Source: an uncultured Bacteroidales bacterium (lineage in GTDB: Bacteria > Bacteroidota > Bacteroidia > Bacteroidales > UBA932). From it: a stretch of DNA of 64,000 nt. The notes under the pieces were generated by a model. The model was not told the DNA's origin and made no database searches. It saw only the letters and a program-made list of their open reading frames with translations. Every line of letters begins with the position of its first letter. Within the stretch, counting starts at the first letter, position 1. Shown piece after piece: positions 40,824 through 54,802 of the stretch. Location of the stretch: contig ONXC01000010.1 of NCBI GenBank assembly GCA_900321715.1, positions 1 to 64,000 of the forward strand, read 5' to 3'. The position numbers were made by a program, and so were the translations under genes.

Positions 40824-40832
40824 ATAAAATGT

Positions 40833-40840
40833 TAAATTTG
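40833..40840 (+). promoter_or_regulatory. Bacteroidota -7 promoter box (TAAATTTG)
   Basis: It lies three bases before the truA ATG at 40844, implying a leaderless transcript. Confidence 0.65.
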
Positions 40841-40843
40841 CAT

Positions 40844-41749
40844 ATGCGTTATTCAATCTGTCTCTCATATAATGGGGCCGATTTCTGCGGCTGGCAGATC
40901 CAGCCCTCCGCTCCGTCTGTGCAGGCAGCCCTTGAAGGGGCTCTTTCCCGCCTTCTGGGCGGCCCCGTTGCCGTTACCGGCGCCGGCCGCACAGACACCG
41001 CCGTGAATGCCGTGGGCTACATTGCCCACTTTGATTTTGGCGGTCCCCTGCCATTTGAGACATCAGATTTTATCTACAAATTAAATGCCATTCTGCCCCG
41101 TTCAGTAGTGGTTCATGAGGTCATTCCGGTGCCCGATGATTTCCATGCCCGCTTTGGCGCCCGCCGCCGTGAATATACCTACTTCATTCACAGGCAAAAA
41201 GACCCTTTCGTGGCCCCCTGGAGCTGGCAGTGCGGTTATCCCGCCCTGGATTTTGATGCAATGAATGAGGCCTGCAAGTACCTTCTTGGCACCCACGACT
41301 TCTCCTGCTTTGAAAAAACCGGCACAGACAACAAAACCTCCATCTGCACCGTCTTCGACGCCTTCTGGAAGCCCTACACCCCGTCACATCTCCAGGTAAT
41401 GTGTTCAGAGGCAGGAGGCACAGGTGCGGGGGACTCCGTTCCGCTTCGCTCCACTCCGGCCCCTCCCACTGCCTGCGGCAGCGGGCCCCTCCCCCTACCC
41501 TTGTGCGGGGGTGCACAAGCCCCCGCACCTGTGCCTCCTGCCTCTGAGCTCTCCTACTGGTACTTCCGCATTGCGGCAGACAGGTTCCTGCGGAACATGG
41601 TACGTGCTACGGTTGGGTCACTGATAGAGGTGGGCCGGGGGAAACATCGGCCCGAATGGATTGCGGAACTCATTGAGAGCGGCACGCGCGGAGATGCCGG
41701 CGAATCCGTCCCCGGAAACGCCCTATTCCTGAACAAAGTCCTGTATTAG
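40844..41749 (+). CDS. truA: tRNA pseudouridine(38-40) synthase with in-frame palindromic insertion
   Basis: 301 residues from the ATG at 40844. The catalytic Asp 51 is in GAGRTDTAVNA. FHARFGARRREYTYFI and ADRFLRNMVRATVGSLIEVG are typical of the family. It modifies the anticodon arm of many tRNAs. Residues 188-235 are not part of the usual fold. They form a Pro/Ala/Gly-rich loop (STPAPPTACGSGPLPLPL in its core) encoded by a 144-bp palindrome at 41405-41548, in a variable surface loop just before the RNA-contacting strand. Without it the protein would be about 253 residues, normal for the family. The same element interrupts metG. Confidence 0.93.
   Translation: MRYSICLSYNGADFCGWQIQPSAPSVQAALEGALSRLLGGPVAVTGAGRTDTAVNAVGYIAHFDFGGPLPFETSDFIYKLNAILPRSVVVHEVIPVPDDFHARFGARRREYTYFIHRQKDPFVAPWSWQCGYPALDFDAMNEACKYLLGTHDFSCFEKTGTDNKTSICTVFDAFWKPYTPSHLQVMCSEAGGTGAGDSVPLRSTPAPPTACGSGPLPLPLCGGAQAPAPVPPASELSYWYFRIAADRFLRNMVRATVGSLIEVGRGKHRPEWIAELIESGTRGDAGESVPGNALFLNKVLY
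41405..41548 (+). mobile_element. In-frame palindromic insertion in truA
   Basis: Perfect 28-bp inverted arms (41405-41432 and 41521-41548) enclose 88 bp. The core reads CGCTTCGCTCC, then CCGGCCCCTCCCA, hairpin CTGCC-TGC-GGCAG, then GGGCCCCTCCCCCTACC, hairpin CTTGTGC-GGGGGT-GCACAAG. The length is 48 codons exactly and begins on a codon boundary. A related core, with other arms, lies in metG at 53054-53176. It resembles Rickettsia palindromic elements in placement, but I know of no described family that it matches. Confidence 0.8.
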
Positions 41750-41750
41750 G

Positions 41751-43001
41751 CTACCAGATGGATTTTGAGCTGCTCTCGGCGGCGTCCTGTAACTCTTTGG
41801 GGACGTTTACGTAGAAATCAAAGCCGGAACGCTCTTCAATGGCGTCTATTGTAGTGATGCCCTGGGAATAACTCATTCCCTTGTGGCTCTCGTTGGTGAA
41901 GATATATGCACATCCCTTTGCGGCAGTCATATCCCCGGAAGTGTTGAAACTGCACTTCATAAGGAGTTTATAAAAGTGGCTGGGGCAGGGGACGCCACTA
42001 ATGGTTTTGCCATCTTCATAGAGCAGTCCCACAACCACGTACAGGGTGTCACTTCCGGAGGGAGCGTTCTTCACCACGGCATTTTCCAGGCTGTTCCATA
42101 CACCGTCATTGAACTGGGTCTGATATTGGAGAGCCTGGTTGGTGTAGTAGAAAGTCTGGTTGTTGGCATCGTCGCAGGTCTGGCGGTAATTGGAGGCTAC
42201 CAGATGGCCACGGCTGTAACCGCTGCTGGAGAAGCAGCTCTGCCAGGATGAAGGTATGCCGGGATCTTCTTTCCAGCTGTTTGATCGGCCGGCACCGTTG
42301 TCAGGGTAAGCGCTGCTGTGCATCACGAAGGCGTCCCACAGCGGGGCCTTCTTTTCCTTGTCTATGAGGGCAGTCCAGTTGCGGTATATCTTTCCGTTAT
42401 ACTTGTAGGTATGGGTAACCACCATCTGGTTGCTGTTGGTGGTCTCATAGTTGTACCATTTTGTGCCGCCGCTGCGTTCCGGTCCGGAGCCGCTGCAGGC
42501 ATCTGTGCTCTTAAGGCTTATTGCCGGAATCTCATAGCCGCCAAGGTACTGGAGGCCGGAAACTGGCTGGGGATTGTCCTGAGGGAGCTCCTCTTCCCCT
42601 CCGGTTGTGGTGAATGACTGCACGCCGCCTTCAATATCCACATAATTGCCGCTGGCACTGTCCATCACAGTTACATACGCCTTGAAGAAATACGTCTTTC
42701 CGGGCTCAAGACTGGAAATGGTGGCAGAGAAATCGGCGGTCTGGTCAGAACTGCTGTTAAGGCCAAGCTGTTCTGTCATGGAGGACTCAGAAGTTCCCCA
42801 GTAAAAACCGTGGTCTCGGACTTCTGTTGTGACTCCGGAATATCGGCCAGAAAGAATGGCCGATGTGTTTGTAATCTCGGAGGCTTTCCAGGTGACCACT
42901 TTCACGGCTTCCTGGTTCTGGGGCTGCTGCGCCTGGGTGCAGGAGGCGGCGGCAATCCATACGGCCAGGATAACAGGGAACTTTTTCATGAGACCTTTCA
43001 T
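41751..43001 (-). CDS. Secreted DNA/RNA non-specific endonuclease with FnIII-like domain
   Basis: 416 residues with a lipoprotein-like signal (MKKFPVILAVWIAAASC). A fibronectin III-like or Ig-like domain follows (about 35-130, TWKASEITNTSAILSGRYSG). The NUC1 domain comes after about 150. Its catalytic motif, normally DRGH, reads YSRGHLVASNYRQT, keeping Arg, Gly and the general-base His. The metal-binding Asn is in NNQTFYYTNQALQ. It probably degrades nucleic acids outside the cell or in the periplasm for nutrient use. It lies 4 bases after a second, larger nuclease on the same strand, so the two form an operon. The truA stop is one base from its own stop. Confidence 0.85.
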   Translation of the reverse strand: MKGLMKKFPVILAVWIAAASCTQAQQPQNQEAVKVVTWKASEITNTSAILSGRYSGVTTEVRDHGFYWGTSESSMTEQLGLNSSSDQTADFSATISSLEPGKTYFFKAYVTVMDSASGNYVDIEGGVQSFTTTGGEEELPQDNPQPVSGLQYLGGYEIPAISLKSTDACSGSGPERSGGTKWYNYETTNSNQMVVTHTYKYNGKIYRNWTALIDKEKKAPLWDAFVMHSSAYPDNGAGRSNSWKEDPGIPSSWQSCFSSSGYSRGHLVASNYRQTCDDANNQTFYYTNQALQYQTQFNDGVWNSLENAVVKNAPSGSDTLYVVVGLLYEDGKTISGVPCPSHFYKLLMKCSFNTSGDMTAAKGCAYIFTNESHKGMSYSQGITTIDAIEERSGFDFYVNVPKELQDAAESSSKSIW

Positions 43002-43005
43002 ATGG

Positions 43006-44958
43006 TTACTTGTTAGAGGCGGTTACATTCCAGTCTGAAGGGTCATAGGCGGCCTTGGGCGCATTAGGAACGTTGGGGAAGAAAGTGAGGCCGGTGAGCT
43101 GTTCCAGTTCACTCACGCTCATGAGGTCTTCCTCGTAAACATAACGCTTGCCGGTAGAGTACTTTCCGGAGCCTTTAAGCTTGTCTATGGCCGATTTAAG
43201 GTCGTTGGTATGGGGACGCACCACTGCTACGCACTGAAGTTCATCTGCCGTGCAGCTTGAGATCACCTTTCCGGTGTTTCCGTCCTTTGTGCGCAGAAGT
43301 ACATAGTAGAACATGGTGGGACGCACCACGTCATCCCTTCCGCCAAAACTTATTGTAGCAGGTTCTACGGTATATCCCCAGCCCTTGCTTTCATATTTTT
43401 CGAAGTATGTGCCGATAACCTCGAAGAGGGTGTCCTGGCAAACTTGGTCGTCTACCCAGTCTTCCACGGTATTCCAACCGCCGCCGCCGGTGTTGAAGCC
43501 GCTGCTCAGCTGAGGGGCTATGTTGGAATAATAGAAGACCTGCTCATTGGTAAGCCTTGAGGCAAGGCGCTCGGCCGATCCCAGCATGTGCCCCTTGTTG
43601 CATCCGCCACCGGTGGATTTGGACTTGTACTGGATGTCCGAGGGCATCTTGGGATCCTGCTTGTAGGCATCTGTCCTGTCTACGTTCTTCTGGGCATACA
43701 TGCTGTGCCTTGGCGCGGCAATCCACAGCGGGCAGTGATACGTTGCGCTGTAGCAGGCCGTATAGTTGCGGGCTTTGCCGCCACCGGGGCCGTCAATGTC
43801 TGTGTAATGCCATGAGTAGTACTGGGTCCTGTCATGGGCATTTACAAGGTAATCCCTGTCACGGTCCAGATGCATTACCGGAAGCTCCGTCCACTGGGGT
43901 ACGCCTGACGGGGGAGCCTCGGGTGCCAGGGTTTCAAAGCTGCGGGTGCTTCCGTAGAAGTACTTGATGTTGTCTCCGTCCTGGAGCACCACGTATGCCC
44001 TGTACCAGTAAACTGTGCTGGGCGTGAGGTCCATGAGGTTCTCCTTGAAGGAAGCGGCCACGTAGGATGCCTGGAGGGTGTTTCCAAGGTCTTCCGTGGT
44101 GCCCCATTCAAAGCCTGCTTCACGGATGGAGGCGTTGGCGTTGAGGAAGGACCCGTTGAGCGTTGCCATGTGGGCGGTCCTGGGGGAAGCCTCTCCGGTG
44201 GTTATCTCAACGCTCAATTCCTTCTCTTCTTCCTCTCCCGGGCCGATTACAGTTCCGCTGGATTCGCTCCTCCTGTACAGAGTGATTGATTCCTGGCTGT
44301 ACTCATATGATGCAAAACGAGGACGGGAAGCGTTGTATTCTATGCATCGGCTATACTGTCCAACATTCCAGAGGCACATTTCTCCATCGTCAAAATCGGG
44401 GTCCCAGAGGTAGGCGTCACCGGTTGCGGTGCTGCTTTTCCATAGCTGGTTGGCGTTTTCCTCCACGCCAAGGTACCCGAATCCGCTGAAAAAGATGGTG
44501 TAGAAACTGTCTTGATGGAGCAGGGTGACCTTGTAGGGGTCCATGATTTCTGCCGGGAAAGTGCCGTCCTCTGAGAGATCGGCCCTGAAATCCTTCTTGT
44601 TTTCCGGGCCGCCTACAGGGACTGCGTATGAGGTGCCGTAGGAGTCGTCTCCCCATTCTCCCATCACGAAGATGCCTTCAGATGTCTCTGCGGTGATGAC
44701 ATACTCTCCGGCCCAGTCGTCAAGGGCTTCTGTGACTTTGACATAACGGATTACGGAAGGGTCCTCTCCGGGTGTATCACCGGGATCATCACCAGGTGTG
44801 TCACCGGGGTCTTCGCCTGGCTTCTCACCGGGGTCTTCGCCTGGATCTTCCGCAGGCGTTTCACTTTCTTCGGGCTTATTGTCTTCAGTTTTGGGCGATG
44901 GCGCACAGGCGCTGATGGCAACAGCCAGCGTGGATATCAGCAGGTATTTTAATTTCAT
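43006..44958 (-). CDS. Large secreted DNA/RNA non-specific endonuclease
   Basis: 650 residues. A lipoprotein signal (MKLKYLLISTLAVAISAC) is followed by a repeating DPG/EDPGE/DTPGD spacer (about 30-68), encoded by a GGxGTCxxCxCC-like direct repeat that may vary in length. Then come a domain of unknown type (about 70-230), an FnIII-like domain similar to that of the neighbour (about 245-340), and a NUC1 domain. In the NUC1 domain the DRGH motif is CNKGHMLGSAER, so Asp becomes Asn and Arg becomes Lys while His is kept. EQVFYYSNIAPQ supplies the metal-binding Asn. It likely arose by duplication with the following gene. The altered motif may change activity. Confidence 0.82.
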   Translation of the reverse strand: MKLKYLLISTLAVAISACAPSPKTEDNKPEESETPAEDPGEDPGEKPGEDPGDTPGDDPGDTPGEDPSVIRYVKVTEALDDWAGEYVITAETSEGIFVMGEWGDDSYGTSYAVPVGGPENKKDFRADLSEDGTFPAEIMDPYKVTLLHQDSFYTIFFSGFGYLGVEENANQLWKSSTATGDAYLWDPDFDDGEMCLWNVGQYSRCIEYNASRPRFASYEYSQESITLYRRSESSGTVIGPGEEEEKELSVEITTGEASPRTAHMATLNGSFLNANASIREAGFEWGTTEDLGNTLQASYVAASFKENLMDLTPSTVYWYRAYVVLQDGDNIKYFYGSTRSFETLAPEAPPSGVPQWTELPVMHLDRDRDYLVNAHDRTQYYSWHYTDIDGPGGGKARNYTACYSATYHCPLWIAAPRHSMYAQKNVDRTDAYKQDPKMPSDIQYKSKSTGGGCNKGHMLGSAERLASRLTNEQVFYYSNIAPQLSSGFNTGGGGWNTVEDWVDDQVCQDTLFEVIGTYFEKYESKGWGYTVEPATISFGGRDDVVRPTMFYYVLLRTKDGNTGKVISSCTADELQCVAVVRPHTNDLKSAIDKLKGSGKYSTGKRYVYEEDLMSVSELEQLTGLTFFPNVPNAPKAAYDPSDWNVTASNK

Positions 44959-44963
44959 CTAGT

Positions 44964-46307
44964 CTAGTATCTGTTCAGTGGACGGCCGGCGGTCATCATG
45001 TTCACCTTGCGGCGGACCTCGTCAAGGACCATCTTGTGGGCTATACGCTCTGCGGTCTGCTGCTCAGTGGGCTCCTTGGCGGTGATGGCGTCAAAGTGGT
45101 CCGAAGCGCTCTGGAGAACGGTGTCTATGAGGTCCACGATGGTCTTCATATCCTTTTCCTCAAAGCCACGGGAGGTGACTGCAGGGGTGCCTACGCGGAG
45201 GCCGCTGGTTGCAAAGGCGCTGCGGGTGTCGAAGGGCACCATGTTCTTGTTCACGGTAATATCGGCCCTTACAAGTTCCTTTTCAGCCACGCGGCCGGTG
45301 AGGTTGGGGAATTTTCCCCTTAAGTCAATGAGCATGAGGTGGTTGTCGGTGCCGCCGGAGATGATCTTGTAACCTTTGCCGATAAACTCCCGGCACATGG
45401 CTGCGGCGTTGGCAATTACCTGCTTCTGGTACTCCACATATTCCGGCTGGGCGGCCTCCCAGAAGGCCACTGCCTTGGCGGCGATGACATGCTCCAGCGG
45501 ACCTCCCTGGATGCCGGGGAAGACGGCGGAGTTGAGGATGGCGCTCATCATTTTTACCTCTCCCTTTGGAGTTGTGAGGCCCCAGGGATTCTCAAAGTCC
45601 TTGCCCATGAGGATGATGCCGCCGCGGGGACCGCGGAGGGTCTTATGGGTGGTGGAAGTAACTATGTGGGCGTATTTTACGGGGTTCTTGAGGAGACCTG
45701 CGGCAATGAGGCCGGCGGTGTGGGCCATGTCAATCCAGAGGATGGCGCCCACTTTGTCGGCAATCTTTCTCATGCGCTCGTAGTCCCATTCGCGGGAATA
45801 GGCCGATGCTCCGCCGATTATGAGCTTGGGTTTACACTCAAGGGCTTTACGCTCCATTTCGTCGTAGTCTACGCGGCCGGTTTCCGGGTTCAGGCCATAA
45901 GCTACGGGATGGTAGAGGATGCCGCTGGCGTTTACGGGGCTGCCGTGTGTGAGATGACCGCCCATTGAGAGATCCAGGCCCATGAAGGTGTCTCCGGGTT
46001 TCAGGATGGCCATGGTTACGGCCATGTTTGCCTGCGCACCGGAATGGGGCTGGACATTGGCGTATTCTGCGTCGTAGAGGGCCTTCACGCGGTCAATTGC
46101 AAGCTGCTCAATCTTGTCCACTACCTCGCAGCCGCCGTAATAGCGTTTGCCGGGATAGCCTTCTGCGTATTTATTGGTGCATACGGAGCCCATTGCAGAA
46201 AGGACTTCGTCGGTTACATAGTTTTCAGACGCAATGAGTTCAAGCCCTGCGGCCTGACGCTCCTGCTCCTTCTTGATCAACTCAAATAGTTGTATGTCTT
46301 TTTTCAT
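44964..46307 (-). CDS. glyA: Serine hydroxymethyltransferase
   Basis: 447 residues. The PLP-binding Lys lies in [15 protein letters not shown], the family motif. [32 protein letters not shown] and the C-terminal [14 protein letters not shown] are also clear. It interconverts serine and glycine with tetrahydrofolate as carbon carrier and is the main one-carbon source. A TATATTTG box on the minus strand lies at 46329-46336. The nuclease gene starts 5 bases after its stop, so read-through is likely. Serine synthesis genes are 3 kb away. Confidence 0.97.
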
Positions 46308-46328
46308 GTGGTTTTTGTTATTGGTCTA

Positions 46329-46336
46329 CAAATATA
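46329..46336 (-). promoter_or_regulatory. Bacteroidota -7 promoter box (TATATTTG, minus strand)
   Basis: It lies upstream of glyA with a leader of about 18 bases. Confidence 0.65.
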
Positions 46337-46359
46337 GTCATAATTATTGGGAAAAACTT

Positions 46360-46367
46360 TAACTTTG
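46360..46367 (+). promoter_or_regulatory. Bacteroidota -7 promoter box (TAACTTTG)
   Basis: It lies five bases before the GTG at 46373, supporting this GTG as the start of a leaderless mRNA. Confidence 0.65.
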
Positions 46368-46372
46368 CTCCC

Positions 46373-46912
46373 GTGAAAGACAGAAAACTTCTAAACAGGG
46401 AACTGGGCCGGATATCGGCCAGTGAATACCGTACTGTAAGGCCCTCCAGCGGCATTGTGCTGGTGCTGGACAACGTCCGCAGCGCCCATAATGTGGGCAG
46501 CGCCTTCCGCACGTCGGATGCCTTCGGCGTGGATAAGGTCTATCTTTGCGGGATATGCCCCGTGCCGCCATCGGCAGAACTAAGGAAAGTGGCCCTTGGC
46601 GCAGAGGTAGTTGTGCCGTCGGAGCACGTGGATGATGCCGTGGACCTGGTCCACCGCCTTCAGGCCGATGGCTACACCGTCATTGCCGTGGAACAGACTG
46701 TGAATTCCGTCAAACTGGATGCCTTCCACCGTGCCCCCGGCGCCAAGTACGCCCTTGTCTTTGGTAATGAGGTTGAAGGCGTGCAGCAGTCCGTTGTGGA
46801 TGCCTGCGACTTTTCCCTTGAAATTCCCCAGCAGGGCACCAAACACTCCCTCAACGTCTCCGTCTCCGTGGGCGTGGTCCTGTGGGGTCTGATTAGCGTA
46901 GAATGTAAATAG
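46373..46912 (+). CDS. SpoU/TrmH-family RNA methyltransferase
   Basis: 179 residues from a GTG placed 5 bases after the promoter box. The three SPOUT motifs are present: LDNVRSAHNVGSAFRTSDAFG (motif 1), ALVFGNEVEGVQQSVVDACD (motif 2) and LEIPQQGTKHSLNVSVSVGVVLW (motif 3). The fold contains a trefoil knot that binds S-adenosylmethionine, and members methylate the 2'-OH of ribose in tRNA or rRNA. There is no extra N-terminal RNA-binding domain, as in TrmL-like and TrmH-like short members; the target is uncertain. A terminator follows at 46934. Confidence 0.9.
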   Translation: MKDRKLLNRELGRISASEYRTVRPSSGIVLVLDNVRSAHNVGSAFRTSDAFGVDKVYLCGICPVPPSAELRKVALGAEVVVPSEHVDDAVDLVHRLQADGYTVIAVEQTVNSVKLDAFHRAPGAKYALVFGNEVEGVQQSVVDACDFSLEIPQQGTKHSLNVSVSVGVVLWGLISVECK

Positions 46913-46933
46913 CTGATAATTAGTAAGATAAGC

Positions 46934-46966
46934 AAAAACCCCTATGCATATTTACATAGGGGTTTT
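46934..46966. terminator. Bidirectional terminator after the SpoU gene
   Basis: AAAACCCCTATG and CATAGGGGTTTT form a 12-bp stem around a short loop. It lies between the convergent SpoU and DUF1015 genes. Confidence 0.85.
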
Positions 46967-47010
46967 CTGCTAAATTACTGATACTCAGTAGATTCCATTC
47001 AACGCGATGC

Positions 47011-48273
47011 TTAGTCCAGCGAGTGGATTGCCAGGCCGCTGCGGAGCTTGGGCTCGAACCAGGTGGTCTTGGGAGGCATGATGTTGCCGGTATCGGCAAT
47101 ATTTATGAGCTGGTCCATTGAAACGGGATACAGCGCAAAGGCCACCTTCATTTCTCCGGAGTCTACGCGGCGGGAAAGCTCTCCAAGGCCGCGGATACCG
47201 CCAACAAAGTCTATCCTCTTGTCTGTGCGGAGGTCCTTGATTCCAAGGATCTTGTCAAGGACAAGGTTACTTAGGATAGTGACGTCAAGAACGCCGATAG
47301 GATCTTCGTCATTGTACCTTCCGGGCTTTGCCGTAAGGCTGTACCACTTGTCTCCAAGATACATTGAGAAATTATGAAGGCCGATAGGGGCATACGGCTT
47401 TGCCGGACGCCCGCAGCGGGGCTTGGTGGCGACGGCTACATCGAAATCCTCCTCCAGTGCCTTCAGGAACTCTTCCTCCGAAAGGCCGTTCAGGTCCTTC
47501 ACCACACGGTTATAATCAATGATTGCGAGGTGACTTTGAGGGAAGCACACTGCCATGAAGTAGTTGTACTCCTCATTTCCCGTGTGGTGAGGATTCTGAG
47601 CTTTCTTTTCTGCGCCTACGCGTGCGGCAGCGGCGGTACGGTGGTGACCATCGGCCACATAGAAGGCGTCTATGTCATTTGTGAAGATTTCAGTGATACG
47701 CTTGATTACTGCGTCGTCCGAAATTACCCAGAAGGTGTGGGTGAACTTGTTCTCGTCCACAAACTTGTATTCCGGCTTTCCGGCTGCGGCATTGGCCACA
47801 ATCTTGTTGAGTTCATCGTTGTCCTTGTAGGCAAAGAACACGGGCTCGATATTGGCGTTCTGGATACGGACATGGACCATTCGGTCGTCTTCCTTGTCCT
47901 TGCGGGTGAGTTCATGCTTCTTGATGATGCCCTGGGCGTAGTCATCCGTGTGGGCGCAGAGGACAAGACCGTACTGGGTACGTTTTCCCATGGTCTGGGC
48001 ATACACATAGTATTTCTCCTTGTCCTCACGGACCAGCCAGCCGCGCTCTTTCCAGGCCTTGAAATTCTCCACGGCTTTGTCGTAGGTGCGTTGCTCGTGC
48101 TCACCGGCAATGGGATTGAAGTCTATTTCCGGCTTTGTGATATGCAGGAGGCTCTTTTCTCCGGCCATAGCCAGTGCTTCCTCAGAGTTAAGGACATCGT
48201 AGGGCGGAGCCGCTACTTCAGTGACCAGGTTCTTGGGCGGGCGTATTGCCGCAAAGGGTTTTACACGTACCAT
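47011..48273 (-). CDS. DUF1015 protein of the serine biosynthesis operon
   Basis: 420 residues. Conserved DUF1015 stretches are VKPFAAIRPPKNLVTEVAAPPYDVL near the start, YVADGHHRTAAAARVG (about 210) and a C-terminal LVLDKILGIKDLRTDKRIDFVGG. DGHHR recalls the ParB/SerK fold, in which an analogous motif handles serine or phosphoserine. The gene follows serA by one base in the order serC-serA-DUF1015, a linkage common in Bacteroidota. No phosphoserine phosphatase is in the window, so a role in the last step or in regulating serine synthesis is plausible. That role is inference. Confidence 0.85.
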   Translation of the reverse strand: MVRVKPFAAIRPPKNLVTEVAAPPYDVLNSEEALAMAGEKSLLHITKPEIDFNPIAGEHEQRTYDKAVENFKAWKERGWLVREDKEKYYVYAQTMGKRTQYGLVLCAHTDDYAQGIIKKHELTRKDKEDDRMVHVRIQNANIEPVFFAYKDNDELNKIVANAAAGKPEYKFVDENKFTHTFWVISDDAVIKRITEIFTNDIDAFYVADGHHRTAAAARVGAEKKAQNPHHTGNEEYNYFMAVCFPQSHLAIIDYNRVVKDLNGLSEEEFLKALEEDFDVAVATKPRCGRPAKPYAPIGLHNFSMYLGDKWYSLTAKPGRYNDEDPIGVLDVTILSNLVLDKILGIKDLRTDKRIDFVGGIRGLGELSRRVDSGEMKVAFALYPVSMDQLINIADTGNIMPPKTTWFEPKLRSGLAIHSLD

Positions 48274-48274
48274 A

Positions 48275-49195
48275 TTACTTGTTTACTTGGAATTTACGGT
48301 TGCCGGTTGCGAAGAAGTCCACAATCTGGCGGGCGGCGGCAAGGCCGGCGTTCACGTTTGCCTCGGCGGTCTGGGCACCCATCTTCTTGGGAGTTGCAAA
48401 GACGCGGTATCCGAAGTTCTTGGTGAGGCGGTCGTAGTTGTCCGGCATAACGTCCGTGACATATTTGAGGTCTTCGCGCTCTGAAAGTGCCTGGAACAGG
48501 CCGTCTTCATCGATGACTTCCTTACGTGCTGTGTTCACAAGGGTAGCGCCCTTTGGCATACGCATTATAAGGTCATAGCCGATGCTCTTAATGGTGGAAG
48601 GAAGGGCCGGGATATGGATTGAAAGGTAATCGGCCGATGCATAAAGCTCTTCCACGGAATGGACGGGCTGGGCGCCGCCGGAGATAATCTGCTCATCCGT
48701 AAGGAAGGGGTCCAGGGCCGATATTTCCATCCCCAGGGCCTTTGCCTTCTGGCCCACCAGACGGCCCACGTTTCCGTAGGCCTGGACACCAAGGCGCTTG
48801 CCCTGGAGCTCTGAGCCAGTTGCGGGAGTAAAGTGGGTGCGGGCCATGAAGATCATAAGGCCAAGTGCAAGTTCTGCCACGGCATTTGAGTTCTGGCCGG
48901 GGGTGTTCATCACAACCACGCCGTGGGCGGTTGCTGCCTCAAGGTCCACGTTGTCAAATCCGGCTCCTGCGCGCACCACGATCTTCAGTTTGGGAGCGGC
49001 GTCAAGTACCTCTGCGGTCACTTTGTCGGAGCGGATGATGAGGGCCTCGGCGTCTGCGACTGCAGCCACAAGATCCTTCTGCTCCGGATACTTTTCAAGT
49101 TTTACAACCTCATGGCCTGCGGCCTTGAGGATATCTTCAATGCCTTTTACAGCTGCCGCTGCAAAGGGCTTCTGGGTTGCTAATAATACTTTCAT
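48275..49195 (-). CDS. serA: D-3-phosphoglycerate dehydrogenase, short Lys type
   Basis: 306 residues with no C-terminal ACT domain, so serine feedback through that domain is unlikely. NAD-binding residues are in GVQAYGNVGRLVGQKAKALG. Arg of VRAGAGFDNVD and the segment VNTARKEVIDEDG are typical. The usual catalytic His of the HIGAQT motif is replaced: here ATPKKMGAQTAEAN has Lys, as in the type IIIK enzymes described for Entamoeba. It oxidises 3-phosphoglycerate to phosphohydroxypyruvate, the first step of serine synthesis. It lies downstream of serC with touching ends. Confidence 0.9.
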   Translation of the reverse strand: MKVLLATQKPFAAAAVKGIEDILKAAGHEVVKLEKYPEQKDLVAAVADAEALIIRSDKVTAEVLDAAPKLKIVVRAGAGFDNVDLEAATAHGVVVMNTPGQNSNAVAELALGLMIFMARTHFTPATGSELQGKRLGVQAYGNVGRLVGQKAKALGMEISALDPFLTDEQIISGGAQPVHSVEELYASADYLSIHIPALPSTIKSIGYDLIMRMPKGATLVNTARKEVIDEDGLFQALSEREDLKYVTDVMPDNYDRLTKNFGYRVFATPKKMGAQTAEANVNAGLAAARQIVDFFATGNRKFQVNK

Positions 49196-50271
49196 TATTT
49201 ATGAAGTTTTTCAAATTCCTGCATGCAGTCTACAAGTGCCTGGACGTCTTCCACGGTGCAGGCGTTGTACAGGGAGGCGCGGAAACCGCCTACGCTGCGG
49301 TGGCCCTTGATGCCCACCATGCCGCGTTCCTTGGCAAAGGCAAAGAAGGGATCGAAGATGTCCTCGTGGCCTTCTGAAGGCACAAAGCATACGTTCATGA
49401 GGGAACGGTCCTCCTTAGCTGCAGTGCCAACGAACAGGCTGTTGCGGTCAATCTCATTATATAGAAGATCGGCCTTCTTCTGATTGATCTTCTGGATGGC
49501 CTCCACGCCGCCCATGGACTTGATCCACTTGAGGGTTTCCTTCATCACGAAGATGTTGAAAACGGGAGGAGTGTTGAACATTGAGAGCTTGTCAATGTGG
49601 GTGCGGTAATCCAGCATCGTGGGGATGTGGCGGGTTACGCGGCCAAGGGAATCCTTCCTGATAATTGCGAATATGACGCCTGCAGGACCCACGTTCTTCT
49701 GGGCGCCGCCGTAGATGAGGTCATACTTACTGACATCCACAGGACGGGACATGATGTCCGATGACATATCGGCAATAAGGGGACAGGGGACGTCAAGGTC
49801 CTCTTTTATCTCCGTACCGTAGATTGTGTTGTTGGTGGTGATGTGCAGATAATCAAGGTCTGCGGGGACATCAAATCCCTTGGGGATATAGGTGTAGTTC
49901 TTGTCCTTGGAGCAGGCTATTGCATAGGCGTCTCCTATGCCCTGGGCCTCTACAAGGGCCTTGTGAGCCCATACGCCGGTGTCCAGGTATGCGGCCTTCT
50001 TCTCAAGGTAGTTCATTGCCACATAGAGGAACTGCAGGGAGGCGCCACCGCCAAGGAAAACTACCTCATGGGTATCCGGGATATTGAGGAGCTCCTTCCA
50101 GAGGGCGCGGGTTTCATCCATTACGGCATCCCACTCCTTGGTGCGGTGAGAGATTGATATGAGGCTGATTCCGGTACCGCTAAAATCCTTCAGGGCCTCA
50201 ATTGCATTGTCAATGGCAACCTGCGGAAGAAGGCAGGGGCCAGCATTGAAAACATGAACTTTCTTGGACAT
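49195..50271 (-). CDS. serC: Phosphoserine aminotransferase
   Basis: 358 residues from the ATG at 50271; upstream in-frame codons lack family similarity. The start fits [16 protein letters not shown]. The PLP-linked Lys lies in [14 protein letters not shown]. It converts phosphohydroxypyruvate with glutamate to phosphoserine. A TAACTTTG box lies at 50308-50315, making this the first gene of serC-serA-DUF1015. Confidence 0.96.
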
Positions 50272-50307
50272 ATTATTTAGGTTATATTCTGTATTAATTA
50301 TGGTTTT

Positions 50308-50315
50308 CAAAGTTA
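50308..50315 (-). promoter_or_regulatory. Bacteroidota -7 promoter box (TAACTTTG, minus strand)
   Basis: It lies upstream of serC with a leader of about 35 bases. Confidence 0.6.
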
Positions 50316-50335
50316 CGGATTATTATTGTGAAAAC

Positions 50336-50935
50336 CTATATTTCTTTCAATTCTGCAATCCCAAAAAGTCTTTCCTTAAAACTCTCATCCTGGGCAAGGC
50401 GTACGCGCGTGACAAGTGAGCACTTCTCTCCAAAGTCCTGACCGCTCTGGGGAAGGTCCATGTCCTTGAGCACCTTCATTACGGCGTTCATGCTCATGTA
50501 ATCGAAGGAAATCCTGTAGTTCCGTCCCGCAATCTTTGGAACCACGGTGGCGGCCGAGAGGGCATCGGCCGTAGAAGTCTTGTAGGCGCGGATGAGCCCG
50601 GGGATACCCAGTTTGATGCCGCCGAAATAGCGCACCACCACCACCAGGACGTCGCTCAGCTCCAGGGAATCTATCTGCCCCAGGATGGGCCTGCCGGCGC
50701 TTCCGGAAGGCTCTCCGTCATCTGAAGCCCTCCAAACATCTCCTTTAAGGCCGATACGGTATGCGTAGCAGTGATGCCGGGCGTCGTGGTACTCTTTGCG
50801 CAGGGATGCCACGATCTCCTTCACCTCTTCCTCCGTTTCCACGGGATACGCAAGCGCGATGAAGCGGGACCCGTTGTCCTTGAAAAGGCCCTCCGACGGC
50901 GCGGCTATGGACTTATATGAATCCTGAATTTCCAC
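50336..50935 (-). CDS. YigZ/IMPACT-family protein
   Basis: 199 residues from a GTG at 50935. That start is preferred because a near-match -7 box (TATTTTCG on the minus strand) lies 5 bases upstream; an ATG at 50971 would add 12 residues upstream of the family start. The IMPACT N-terminal domain shows GSRFIALAYPVETEEEVKEIV, ARHHCYAYRIG, SDDGEPSGSAGRPILGQI and VVRYFGGIKLGIPGLIRAY. A small C-terminal DUF1949-like domain follows. The biochemical role of the family is unsettled (translation-related regulation or RNA binding). It is divergent from the gene at 51115. Confidence 0.85.
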   Translation of the reverse strand: MEIQDSYKSIAAPSEGLFKDNGSRFIALAYPVETEEEVKEIVASLRKEYHDARHHCYAYRIGLKGDVWRASDDGEPSGSAGRPILGQIDSLELSDVLVVVVRYFGGIKLGIPGLIRAYKTSTADALSAATVVPKIAGRNYRISFDYMSMNAVMKVLKDMDLPQSGQDFGEKCSLVTRVRLAQDESFKERLFGIAELKEI

Positions 50936-50990
50936 AACAACGAAAATAATATATTTCGATAAAAATTGCAATTAAACAAGGAAAAAGAAT

Positions 50991-50998
50991 TACCTTTG
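50991..50998 (+). promoter_or_regulatory. Bacteroidota -7 promoter box (TACCTTTG)
   Basis: It matches TAnnTTTG. The transcript would start near 51002 and carry a leader of about 110 bases containing the structures at 51008-51079. Confidence 0.65.
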
Positions 50999-51007
50999 TA
51001 TATAAGT

Positions 51008-51040
51008 CCCTCCCCCGAGGGGAGGGGTTTCGGGAGGGGG
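51008..51040 (+). promoter_or_regulatory. 5'-leader hairpin overlapping a possible G-quadruplex
   Basis: CCCTCCCC and GGGGAGGG can form a perfect hairpin. The G-rich half also holds four G-tracts (51019-51022, 51024-51027, 51032-51034, 51036-51040) separated by A, TTTC and A, which fits a four-layer or three-layer quadruplex. The two folds are mutually exclusive. Confidence 0.5.
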
Positions 51041-51042
51041 TA

Positions 51043-51079
51043 ACGTAAACAGTCGCAGGGTGGGCTTGCGCGTTTACGT
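51043..51079 (+). repeat. Second leader hairpin before gene 51115
   Basis: ACGTAAAC and GTTTACGT pair perfectly over 8 bp, with an inner CGCA/TGCG stem. It lies between the G-rich element and the coding region. No function is assigned. Confidence 0.45.
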
Positions 51080-51114
51080 GATGAGGTTGTTTTTTTTGAT
51101 GACGGTTTAACTGT

Positions 51115-51660
51115 ATGGTTTTTAAGATTCGCGTTACCCTTGCGGGTATTAAAGGCTTTTATCGCCTATATCATGTCAACGGCGCCACAACGCTGTACGA
51201 CATCCATAAGCAGCTTCGCAGTGACCTGGAGTTCGCCCAGGATCAGATAATAATGTTCAAGGCCCTGGACGTGACGGGTGGCGTAGTTGCCCGCTACGGC
51301 CTCTTTGACCTTGGCAGCGGCACCGTAGACCGCATAACGCTTGAAGACACCGTCAAGGCCGGCACGGACAGCATGGTGTACTTCTATGACGTCACCAACA
51401 AGAAGAGCGTCATCCTCACCGTAGAGGGTGAAGCGGAAGGTGAGCGCGTCACGGGCCTTGTCCTCAAGGAATCCAAAGGTCCCAATCCCATAGAGTTTGA
51501 AAACGGCTACGTGGCCTACGAGGACCTCCCTGAGCGTCAGCGTTATCTCCCCGGGGAAGAACCGGAAGACGACGATGATGACTTTGATGATGAGGAGGAA
51601 GAGGATGATGAGGACGACGACGAAGACGGCAAGGAAATCTTTGACGAGGGTGAGGAGTAG
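51115..51660 (+). CDS. Plasmid pRiA4b ORF-3-like protein with acidic tail
   Basis: 181 residues. FYRLYHVNGATTLYDIHKQLRSDLEF and the Gly/Asp-rich middle match the PF07929 (pRiA4b ORF-3 / IS1096 TnpR-like) family, which occurs as a free-standing chromosomal gene in Bacteroidota. About 25 Asp/Glu residues form the C-terminal tail. There is no transposase or recombinase motif, so the historical name does not imply mobility. It precedes miaA with a 1-base overlap (TAGTG), suggesting a tie to tRNA modification or translation. Its leader is unusually structured. Confidence 0.75.
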   Translation: MVFKIRVTLAGIKGFYRLYHVNGATTLYDIHKQLRSDLEFAQDQIIMFKALDVTGGVVARYGLFDLGSGTVDRITLEDTVKAGTDSMVYFYDVTNKKSVILTVEGEAEGERVTGLVLKESKGPNPIEFENGYVAYEDLPERQRYLPGEEPEDDDDDFDDEEEEDDEDDDEDGKEIFDEGEE

Positions 51661-52520
51661 TGCCGCACAGGGTTGAGATAATACTGGGCCCCACCGGCGT
51701 GGGTAAAAGTGCCTACGCCATCAAACGTGCCCTGGAGGTAGGCTCACCCGTCATAAACTGCGATTCCCGGCAAATATATAAGGAACTGTGCATCGGCACG
51801 GCGGCCCCCTCGCGTAGGGACATGGCCACCGTGAAGCACTACTTCACCCGCTGCATTCCCATCACGCGCAACTATACCGCCGGAATTTATGAGGCCGATG
51901 CCCTGGCCCTTGTGAACAAGCTGTTTGATCAGGGCCACGAAACCCTTGTGATGTGCGGCGGTTCAATGATGTACATAGATGCCTTCTGCTACGGCCTTGA
52001 CGATTTTCCGGAGGTCCCGCTGCAGCTGCGCCAGCACCTTATGGAGTGCCTCCGTGAGGACGGCGTGGAGTCCCTTGCAGCGCAGCTCAAGGAACTGGAC
52101 CCCGTCTCCTATGAGGAACTGGACCTTTCAAACGGTCAGCGTGTCATAAGGGCCCTGGAGGTGAGTATGTACACAGGTCAGCCGTTCTCTTCCTTCAAGA
52201 CCAGAAGCTTCAAGGAAAGGGACTTCGAAATTGTTAAAATCGGCCTTGAAAGGCCCAGGGAAGAGCTTTATGACCGCATCAACCAGCGGGTTCTCCAGAT
52301 GATGCGCCGAGGCCTTGAGGCCGAGGCCCGCCGTATGCTTCCATACCGTGACCTTCCCGCCCTCCAGACTGTTGGCTATAAGGAAATGTTCGACTACTTT
52401 GATGGCGTCACAGACCGTGAAGAAGCCGTCCGCCGCATCCAGGTGAACACCCGCCACTACGCCAAGCGCCAGCTTACCTGGTGGCGCCGGGACAACACTA
52501 TCCAGTGGATGAACGTTTAA
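51660..52520 (+). CDS. miaA: tRNA dimethylallyltransferase
   Basis: 286 residues from a GTG that overlaps the upstream stop by one base. The P-loop is [23 protein letters not shown] and [13 protein letters not shown] are family hallmarks, as are YTGQPFSSF and the C-terminal [16 protein letters not shown]. It adds dimethylallyl to A37 of tRNAs reading UNN codons. It lies downstream of the acidic PF07929 protein and converges with metG, whose stop overlaps its end by 4 bases. Confidence 0.96.
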
Positions 52521-54802
52521 CCTATCTGGGCGCCGTTCACAACGGCTTCCTCAGGGGTGATGAAGCGCATCTTGCCGTCACCCTGCTTTGCCATAAGGAT
52601 CATACCCTTTGACTCTATGCCGCGGATCACGCGGGGAGCGAGGTTTGCAAGGATGCAGATCTGCTTACCCACCATGTCTTCCGGTGAATAGTACTCTGCA
52701 ATGCCGGACACAATTGTGCGCTGGTCAATGCCCGTGTCAATTGTGAGTTTGAGGAGTTTATCCGTCTTGGGAACGCGTTCTGCGGCAAGAACCGTTGCCG
52801 TGCGGATATCCATTGCGCCAAACTGCTCAAAGGTAACCTCAGGCTTTTGAGGCTCAATCTTCTTTGCGGCTTCTGCAGCGGCCTTTGCGGCCTCGGCCTC
52901 CTCACGGGCCTTCTTGATGGCCTCCAGCCTTGCAATCTGGGCCTCTACCTCTGCATCCTCAATCTTACGGAACAGCAGCACCGCCTCTCCAATCTGGTGC
53001 CCGGCCGGCAGCAGTTCTGCGTTACCCAGCATGTCCCATGACAGGATGATTGAGCCAGCGGCAGTGGTGTGCAAATCCGTGGCCACCCTCGGCCCCGTAA
53101 GAGGGAGGGGCCCATCGCTTGCGATGGGAGGGGCCGGAGCGACAGCGGAGGCGATTTGCACACCACTGCCGTTGGCGTGGACCGTGTGCACGGCCTTGCC
53201 TTCATCGGCCTTGTAGAAATTGACGGTAGGAGTGCCTTCGCCGGCGCGGTAGTCCCATCCGGCGTTTACGCCAACGCGGAGAATGTCGCGAAGCTTCTGG
53301 GCGCTGAAGGGGGTGAACGGCTCAAAGGCAATGGCAAGATCGGCACAAATCTGAAGGCAGGTGTAAAGGATGGAGGCGCAGCGGTCCATGTCTTCCTTTG
53401 CAACCTTCCAGGGCTCCATGTCGGAGATGTATTTGTTGCCTATACGCGCCATGTTCATAGCCTCCTTCAGGGCCTCCCTGAAGTGGAAGGTCTCAATGTA
53501 CTTCTCAAGGGCTTCACGGCAGGGCTTAAGGGCCTCAAGAGTCTCTGCATCAATTGCTTCCGGTTTCTTGTTCTGAGGTACTGCGCCGCCAAAGTACTTA
53601 TGGGTGAGCACCACGGCGCGGTTCACGAAGTTTCCAAAGACGGCAAGGAGTTCAGAGTTGTTGCGGCTCTGGAAGTCCTTCCAGGTGAAGTCGTTGTCCT
53701 TGGTTTCGGGGGCATTGGCGGTGAGGACATAACGCATGACGTCCTCGCAGCCCGGGAACTGCTCCTCATATTCATTAACCCAAACAGCCCAGTTGCGGGA
53801 AGTGGAAATCTTGTCACCTTCAAGGTTAAGGAACTCATTGGAAGGGACATTGTCCGGAAGGATATAAGTACCTTCGGCCTTCAGCATTGAAGGGAACACG
53901 ATGCAGTGGAAAACAATATTATCCTTGCCGATAAAATGCACCAGACGCGTCTCAGGGTCTTTCCACCACTTCTCCCAGCTCTGAGGCAGGAGTTCCTGGG
54001 TGTTTGAAATATAGCCGATGGGGGCGTCGAACCACACATAGAGGACCTTTCCCTCTGCGCCATCTACCGGAACGGGAACGCCCCAGTCAAGGTCACGGGT
54101 GACGGCACGGGGCTGGAGGCCGCCGTCCAGCCAGCTCTTGCACTGGCCGTAAACGTTGGTTTTCCACTCCTTGTGCTGCTCCAGGATCCAGTCACGGAGC
54201 CAGGGTTCATACTTGTCAAGGGGCAGATACCAGTGCTTGGTCTTCTTCTTCACGGGAGTTGAACCGCTTAACTTGGATTTAGGGTCCAGAAGTTCTTCCG
54301 GGGAAAGGGTGCTGCCGCATTTCTCGCACTGGTCACCATAGGCGTGGGGATTGCCGCATTTGGGGCAGGTACCCTCTATGAGACGGTCCGTGAGGAACAT
54401 GTGGGCCTGCTCGTCATAGAGCTGCTCACTTTCCTGAGTGATGAAATCGGCCTGGTCATAAAGCTTACGGAAGAACTCGGAGGCGTTCTTTGCGTGAACC
54501 TCCGATGATGTGCGGGAATAGATGTCAAAATTGATTCCGAGGCCCGTGAAGGCGTCCTTCATTATCTTGTGGTACTTGTCCACAATGTCCTGGGGAGTTA
54601 CGCCCTGGTCCTTGGCCTTGATGGTGATGGGCACGCCGTGTTCATCTGAGCCGCACACAAACACCACGTCTTCCCCGCGCATTCGGAGATAACGCACATA
54701 GATGTCTCCGGGGATGTAGGCACCGGCAAGATGGCCGATATGTACGGGACCGTTGGCATAGGGGAGTGCGCAGGTCACCAGGGTTCTTTTGTAACTGCTC
54801 AT
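52517..54802 (-). CDS. metG: Methionyl-tRNA synthetase with in-frame palindromic insertion
   Basis: 761 residues. HIGH (21-24), a zinc knuckle (CPKCGNP...CEKCGS) and the KMSKS counterpart DKISTSRN are present, and the C-terminal EMAPII-like tRNA-binding domain starts near [10 protein letters not shown]. Residues 543-583 ([20 protein letters not shown] and the following GPLPL segment) come from a 123-bp palindrome at 53054-53176. They lie in the linker between the anticodon-binding domain and the region before the EMAPII domain, where relatives have a short loop. The enzyme charges tRNA-Met and must stay active. The start overlaps the dnaG end by 4 bases. Confidence 0.95.
53054..53176 (-). mobile_element. 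In-frame palindromic insertion in metG
   Basis: The 24-bp arms (53054-53077 and 53153-53176) pair with one mismatch. On the coding strand the core is CCGCTGTCGCTCC, GGCCCCTCCCA, hairpin TCGC-AA-GCGA, GGGCCCCTCCCTCTTAC, hairpin CGGGGCC-GAGGGT-GGCCACG. It spans exactly codons 543-583. Linkers match the truA element (41405-41548); stems are paired but unlike in sequence. Reading frame relative to the core is the same in both genes. Confidence 0.8.

Follow-up and report, generated by a model that had tools for sequence, protein, structure and literature searches.

Within a 64,000-nucleotide (nt) stretch of DNA from an uncultured Bacteroidales bacterium (contig ONXC01000010.1 of assembly GCA_900321715.1; the whole stretch is termed here the window), the genes truA and metG each carry a palindromic element across which the open reading frame (ORF) stays open. 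Each element consists of two long complementary outer arms that enclose a core of inner hairpins (P1b, P2 and P3) joined by linkers (Table 1). Re-reading both copies confirmed what a first-pass annotation had noted there: the outer stem, P2 and P3 differ in sequence between the copies yet still pair, and the linkers, the P3 loop and the complementarity of CCCYC in the second linker to GRGGG in the P3 loop are all present. The arms are 100% complementary in the truA copy and 96% complementary in the metG copy (24 nt). Folded as RNA, both elements outdo shuffled sequences (z of -7.15 for truA and -7.61 for metG), the outer stem being the main source of the excess; the minimum-energy inner fold departs from the proposed P2 and P3 pairs (in truA through alternative GGCC pairings), so that P2, P3 and the pseudoknot are unproven by energy alone. 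Because two copies are weak proof, the analysis was extended to the whole family.

Table 1. The truA and metG elements and their host reading frames (window positions)
Feature	Positions	Strand	Remarks
truA ORF (tRNA pseudouridine synthase)	40829..41749	+	PF01416; open across element
truA element, 5' outer arm	41405..41432	+	28 nt
truA element, P1b (first inner hairpin region)	41433..41457	+	variable subtype
truA element, linker 1 GGCCCCTCCC	41458..41467	+	final CCC pairs with the 3' GGG of the P2 base
truA element, P2 hairpin CTGCC/GGCAG, GGG base	41468..41485	+	
truA element, linker 2	41486..41499	+	CCCCC 41491-41495, one pseudoknot side
truA element, P3 hairpin CTTGTGC/GCACAAG, loop GGGGGT	41500..41519	+	GGGGG 41507-41511, other pseudoknot side
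truA element, 3' outer arm	41520..41547	+	
metG ORF (methionyl-tRNA synthetase)	52517..54802	-	PF09334, PF01588; open across element
metG element, 5' outer arm	53153..53176	-	
metG element, P1b (first inner hairpin region)	53133..53152	-	
metG element, P2 hairpin CCCATCGC/GCGATGGG	53111..53128	-	
metG element, linker 2	53098..53110	-	CCCTC 53101-53105, one pseudoknot side
metG element, P3 hairpin CGGGGCC/GGCCACG, loop GAGGGT	53078..53097	-	GAGGG 53086-53090, other pseudoknot side
metG element, 3' outer arm	53054..53077	-	

Both elements belong to a dispersed repeat family. A search of the window's own genome with the linker sequence returned 38 matches, and reading of their surroundings yielded 26 copies; a covariance model built from 20 copies returned 28 matches in the same genome at E <= 0.1, among them a 31-nt fragment and weak, truncated copies. 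The parts follow one another in the order outer arm, first hairpin, CCCTCCC, P2, GGGCCCCTCCC with a short variable linker, P3 and other arm. The core--that is, everything between the arms: the optional first hairpin, the linker, a variable P2, linker 2 and P3--is mostly 65-92 nt long, and the element with its arms spans about 120-190 nt among the matches listed. The base of P2 (CCC/GGG) is invariant in the 20 aligned copies, its body varies and can be as short as a few nt or as long as about 50, and P3 has in most copies a non-canonical position that faces an A. The first hairpin is missing in distant copies (three of five in genome G226, and also in G128). At five loci (L010, L014, L022, L023 and L028) the place of P2 is taken by an inner hairpin about 50 nt long, the same or similar among them (GCAAGCTTGC and its like), which is perhaps a nested repeat. 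Two variant copies (L031 and L214) have a larger domain between linker 2 and P3.

Inasmuch as minimum-energy folds miss the whole inner structure, the structural case rests on covariation. Pairing was examined in 20 of the 26 own-genome copies (six were excluded, five for a long P2 and one for a rearranged P3): paired cells amount to 89.1% as against 66.1% in shuffles, double-change cells number 227 as against 72.0, none of 500 shuffles reaches any of five pairing measures, and sliding the partner columns by 1-3 positions lowers pairing to 37-46%. Compensated changes are present in all stems. All five measures also lie above every slid control.

The pseudoknot proposed from the two window copies (CCCYC with GRGGG) is borne out as well, and is real. 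It was counted over the 285 copies that could be parsed among 294 distinct ones (9 were unparsable) and at variable cells, the helix's other three pairs being fixed by the search pattern and hence uncounted; because copies were gathered by pattern, the sample is biased toward intact cores. Of 570 variable linker/loop cells, 569 are Watson-Crick (the exception is a single C-A), whereas 1000 shuffles give a mean of 276 and a maximum of 326. One pair of the helix takes all four types (T-A 161, G-C 79, A-T 27 and C-G 18), and seven complementary dinucleotide combinations occur. A five-base helix that crosses another in this way would be poorly explained by hairpin copying.

The outer arms vary in a different manner. 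For 254 of 293 copies (39 were dropped for a weak stem or for arms identical to those of another copy), Watson-Crick pairs account for 5280 of the 5613 scored in the arms (94%, a figure inflated by scoring stems at their best register and trimming them), the rest being 59 G-T (1%), 135 A-C and 139 other. In RNA stems that are under selection, G-U pairs usually are more frequent than this. Among 22 pairs of orthologous copies with arm identity >= 0.68 (rows that share copies and are thus non-independent), 40 arm changes are paired, 21 of them transitions and 19 transversions. Given the few G-T pairs, the many paired transversions and the inversion or replacement of cores between kept arms (described below), the outer-stem covariation looks more like the product of DNA template switching--in which one arm of a palindrome is copied onto the other during replication--than of selection on RNA. 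The arms nevertheless share a loose consensus across copies, by eye approximately GGAGGGTATTGTNTCYCAAACC, so that most arms look like diverged relatives; they appear to share one ancestor and to have been rewritten pairwise since. The earlier argument that locus-specific arms speak against copying holds loosely, with the correction that the arms are not wholly locus-specific.

At a few loci the arms may have been carried into the host flank. At L040 one arm contains the gene end CTGTAA and the other contains TTACAG; in an element-free relative the gene stops at the same place with TTATAA. At L208, GGTTCTGCGGAG occurs once in an element-free relative and occupied sites carry CTCCGCAGARCC at the far arm. 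These comparisons, made by eye, suggest that at L040, L041 and L208/L232 the outer ends of the arms are inverted copies of host flank, the L208 case being ambiguous. The idea that whole arms are inverted host flank was rejected, mirroring being seen at outer ends only. One further observation concerns arms alone: the truA gene of genome G019 (L127) carries an imperfect, coreless palindrome that resembles the element's arms and that is possibly a relic or precursor.

Between arms that stay in place, the core can be turned around. When ortholog pairs are required to match in both flanks (a stem threshold removing weak stems from these counts), the core has the same orientation in 107 and the opposite orientation in 83; when both arms must be identical at >= 19/24 positions, 17 pairs agree and 5, from four loci, are opposite. 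Six of 19 arm-matched locus groups contain both orientations, and L046 and L326, whose arms match at 18/24 positions, have nearly identical cores in reverse. Template switching at inverted repeats is known to yield both arm homogenization and spacer inversion (PMC8604942).

Within a locus, by contrast to its flanks, the core is conserved. Summed over seven ortholog pairs that lie in ORFs and whose arm identity is >= 0.85 (some copies recur), 4 of 104 four-fold sites changed in the core as against 296 of 1036 in the flanks, and pairs of lower arm identity mostly agree. The metG pair formed by the own genome and G101, counted separately, shows 2 of 24 four-fold sites changed in the element as against 168 of 297 in the flanks; over 22 arm positions it has 4 paired changes, 2 single changes and 1 unpaired double change, and three arm differences that adjoin the core are compensated on the opposite arm. 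These metG orthologs have their own P1b and P2 in common. Elsewhere, orthologous copies whose arms are the same differ in P2 or P1b, which indicates that P2 is exchanged or rebuilt. Selection on RNA structure may be possible for the core.

Where surroundings were wide enough to place a copy among genes (138 copies, ORFs being called mechanically as stop-free stretches), 42 copies lie in ORFs in the sense direction, 31 in ORFs in the antisense direction and 65 between ORFs; where the gene on the left is directed toward the copy, it ends a median of 3-4 nt from the scored element. Host ORFs read all three sense frames (13, 14 and 12) and two antisense frames (11 and 18). Of the 138 copies, 7 are open in the remaining antisense frame, which 1 of 69 ORFs uses (a figure that the calling of ORFs biases). 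TruA and MetG retain their Pfam domains. No stop codon occurs among the metG matches listed (97 of 101 genomes); among those listed for truA, at least two rows from other genomes contain one TAA. At the same metG and truA sites, relatives carry other short insertions, including TGTCATT...AATCT palindromes (CHSERSEES and kin), which marks the element's sites as tolerant loops. In-frame palindromes of the forms TGTCATTCTGAG..GAATC and GTCATTCCCGG..GGGAATCT likewise stand at the same sites, for example in L084, L100, L101, L117, L120 and L126; the peptides that such palindromes encode include CHSERSEES, VISSEVEKS and VIPGLTGNP, and the palindromes could be of a kind with the CGTC-tagged repeats described in PMC3733652. 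Apart from the elements, two adjacent ORFs lie 3' of truA (window 41751-44958) and look, by motif, like putative secreted non-specific DNA/RNA endonucleases.

The family is concentrated in one genus. Of 37 genomes scanned in the genus, the own genome included, 33 gave matches, and none of 24 genomes of other families scanned alongside did; G002, G010, G018 and G025 are among the genomes without a match. Across the order, 5 of 295 genomes match (the own genome, one of another genus of the family and three of other families, which makes four further genera), and across the phylum the own genome is the sole match among 395; since scans of more than 40 genomes (those of genus, order and phylum) used stricter filters with few candidates scored, absence in them is weak evidence. 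Most genomes compared are incomplete metagenome-assembled genomes, and per-genome element counts in the genus scan are among matches listed. A scan of named genomes returned at least 120 stretches, and of the 80 listed, two fall in records of Candidatus Cryptobacteroides (L264 and L303) and the rest in records labelled Bacteroidales, Bacteroidia or Bacteroidaceae, from which we infer that the window's genus is Candidatus Cryptobacteroides. Some relatives have the corresponding sites without an element. Eleven loci gave no match at E <= 1 to the covariance models of Rfam 15, and the window stretch gave three matches below the gathering score, none of them on the truA or metG elements. A literature search found no description of this element, which is the sole ground for calling it undescribed. 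A search for an autonomous parent was unrewarding: at L021 two type-B copies face each other 3.8 kb apart with genes between them that look ordinary by eye, no protein search having been made, and L051 offers nothing else. Tracts of ACCTGCGACG-like repeated motifs flank the type-B copies at L021.

What is proposed here is that the two parts of the element, core and arms, have different histories. The element would be a non-autonomous dispersed palindromic repeat, akin to the Rickettsia palindromic elements (RPEs), that belongs to what is probably Candidatus Cryptobacteroides and to a few other Bacteroidales, and that combines a pseudoknotted, recognised core with template-switched arms; we regard this account as about evenly poised between right and wrong. 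Under it, the core would act as a fold of single-stranded DNA or of RNA that is recognised by some trans-acting enzyme or host factor, and copies would spread through that recognition. The arms, of about 20-30 bp, would be kept palindromic by template switching at replication, one arm being copied onto the other, a process that may also carry arms into the host flank and could reverse the core. An intragenic copy, to judge from the open frames, would sit in a tolerant loop and be translated as an in-frame insertion in whatever frame it landed. A bolder version is possible but decidedly more tentative: that the element represents an undescribed class, in which a pseudoknotted core dwells within a palindrome, is recognised by an enzyme as a single strand, and can be replaced or reversed while the arms stay, template switching building the arms and the whole adding a peptide on either strand.

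Among other explanations, an intron, or a ribosome-bypassing or self-splicing intervening RNA, would account for so stable a structure within essential genes. The first-pass annotation had entertained such a 'ribozyme-like, bypassing or intervening RNA', which proves unsupported: 31 of the 73 copies in ORFs are antisense, the truA and metG frames are open in the window, no stop appears among the metG matches listed, and 1 of 69 host ORFs reads the frame that has a TAA built in (again biased, ORFs being stop-free by construction). Occurrence in both orientations within ORFs, together with read-through of metG and truA, makes an intron, bypass or ribozyme highly improbable. A functional or selfish RNA, maintained by selection on the fold of the transcript alone--whether for self-cleavage, protein binding or mRNA stability--would keep all of the stems, arms included. 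The pseudoknot covariation, the compensated changes in every stem, the constraint on the core in place and the stable folds are what it would lead one to expect, as is the presence of G-T pairs with no A-C at P2 pair 5 and at the lower P3 pairs (17 and 11 G-T, respectively). We nevertheless consider it unlikely, because antisense copies (31, against 42 sense) often give the host mRNA the complement, because the arms have few G-T pairs and many paired transversions, because the core is reversed between kept arms, and because Rfam holds no match. Concerted evolution, in which gene conversion swaps cores among dispersed copies and so keeps them alike without function while the arms lie outside the exchanged stretch, fits the differences in P2 or P1b between orthologous copies with the same arms and the similar P2 common to different loci of close species. 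It appears no more probable, inasmuch as core subtypes, P2 and linker/loop types vary within one genome, the metG orthologs keep their own P1b and P2, and paired changes in the pseudoknot are left unexplained.

The element might instead be a passenger, resembling a miniature inverted-repeat transposable element (MITE), of a single-strand transposase (of the HUH, IS200/IS605 or RAYT type) that recognises the folded core. Genes encoding such a domain (Y1_Tnp) score above cut-off in 21 of 30 genomes; none is found in G018, which has no element match, in G012, which has one, or in G013, which has seven weak ones; and of the 39 Y1_Tnp rows of 12 genomes, 3 have a listed element within 2 kb, where about 1.3 are expected (G106:C3:18613, G106:C11:30702 and G101:C12:22676, at 0.8-1.8 kb). 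This excess is small, however (within 10 kb, 6 of 39 rows, about 5.9 expected); around eight Y1_Tnp loci scanned, of 67 rows, no element lies within about 1.5 kb; G001, with 10 elements, is without Y1_Tnp, and G009 has one element and four Y1_Tnp; G125 and G324 have no element yet one and two Y1_Tnp; and four carriers outside the genus are without Y1_Tnp. The own-genome gene, an ORF of 366 aa (L433, G000:C16:84220), sits by eye amid other repeated motifs with ATCGGCC and CAATCAG, and element orientation is unrelated to GC skew. The occurrence of Y1_Tnp genes within the genus is suggestive, with exceptions, their closeness to elements being at most slightly above expectation, and such a passenger seems to us doubtful. 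A bias of orientation with replication was considered and set aside: over 40 stretches from three genomes, GC skew has the same sign in 31 of 61 cases and GC3 skew in 26 of 61. In the same stretches, element orientation agrees with the local coding strand in 41 of 61.

Several observations weigh against the proposal of a recognised core within template-switched arms. No mobilising enzyme was found, the evidence on Y1_Tnp being mixed, and no mobilisation event was seen. Beside the 40 paired arm changes stand 29 single-sided and 7 double but unpaired changes in the same 22 rows. Evidence from wobble pairs as to which strand folds is conflicting: the excess of A-C over G-T in the arms falls largely at arm positions 10-14, and P2 pair 4 has 130 A-C and 1 G-T of 282, as opposed to the G-T pairs of P2 pair 5 and lower P3. 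The mirrored flank at L208 is missing at the element-free site of the own genome, so that in the element-free relative, G061, it could be what a lost copy left behind. Two of eight turned-round pairs inspected differ in P1b subtype (L208/L232 and L141/L304), and several of the eight differ in P2; simple spacer inversion is therefore insufficient for all of them, and at L208/L232 and L141/L304 core replacement or exchange happens too. In the study of template switching in yeast (PMC8604942), spacers were <= 70 nt and inversions altered 2-5 bp, as compared with cores of mostly 65-92 nt here. Three pairs of lower arm identity, with few core sites, have changed cores (3/3, 2/3 and 4/10), one pair lacks a contrast between core (1/8) and flank (10/74), and conservation in place could come from exchange of cores between copies rather than from selection.

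More generally, this family illustrates how strong covariation in stems, usually read as proof of a functional RNA, may be separated into probable DNA copying (in the arms) and a constrained fold (the pseudoknot). It also makes available, in a widespread and little-studied gut lineage, many orthologous palindromes in which one can measure how arms are corrected, how cores are inverted and how elements are inserted into conserved proteins.

Of the systems already described, RPEs are dispersed palindromes of about 150 bp found in frame in unrelated genes (PMC10969869), and the elements here likewise are dispersed palindromes in frame in genes; they differ in having a pseudoknotted core, pair-rewritten arms and a reversible core, and the likeness drawn here is one of description. 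REP (repetitive extragenic palindromic) sequences with their RAYT transposases, and CGTC-tagged repeats, also are palindromic, of high copy and at times intragenic (PMC3733652); REPs, however, are hairpins of 20-40 bp that bear a GTAG or CGTC tag, from which the present elements depart in length and anatomy, and any association of the latter with Y1_Tnp genes appears weak. MITEs and enterobacterial RU repeats are small inverted-repeat elements that are at times intragenic (PMC10969869, PMC2759123); MITEs end in inverted repeats, and young ones also have direct repeats on either side (PMC10969869), whereas here the arms differ from copy to copy around a loose consensus, and no consistent direct repeat or duplication was seen by eye at the compared sites. 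Quasipalindrome template switching (PMC8604942) provides the likeness for arm homogenization and spacer inversion in coding DNA: the pattern of arm changes corresponds to the former, the switching event itself being supposed, and five pairs with arms >= 19/24 show inversion between kept arms, though not always of the same core. The yeast case involves short chance repeats, whereas here a whole family of repeats, conserved in the core, would be maintained by the process. On this analysis, the element appears to affect genes much as RPEs do, and its arms appear to behave like those of template-switch palindromes.

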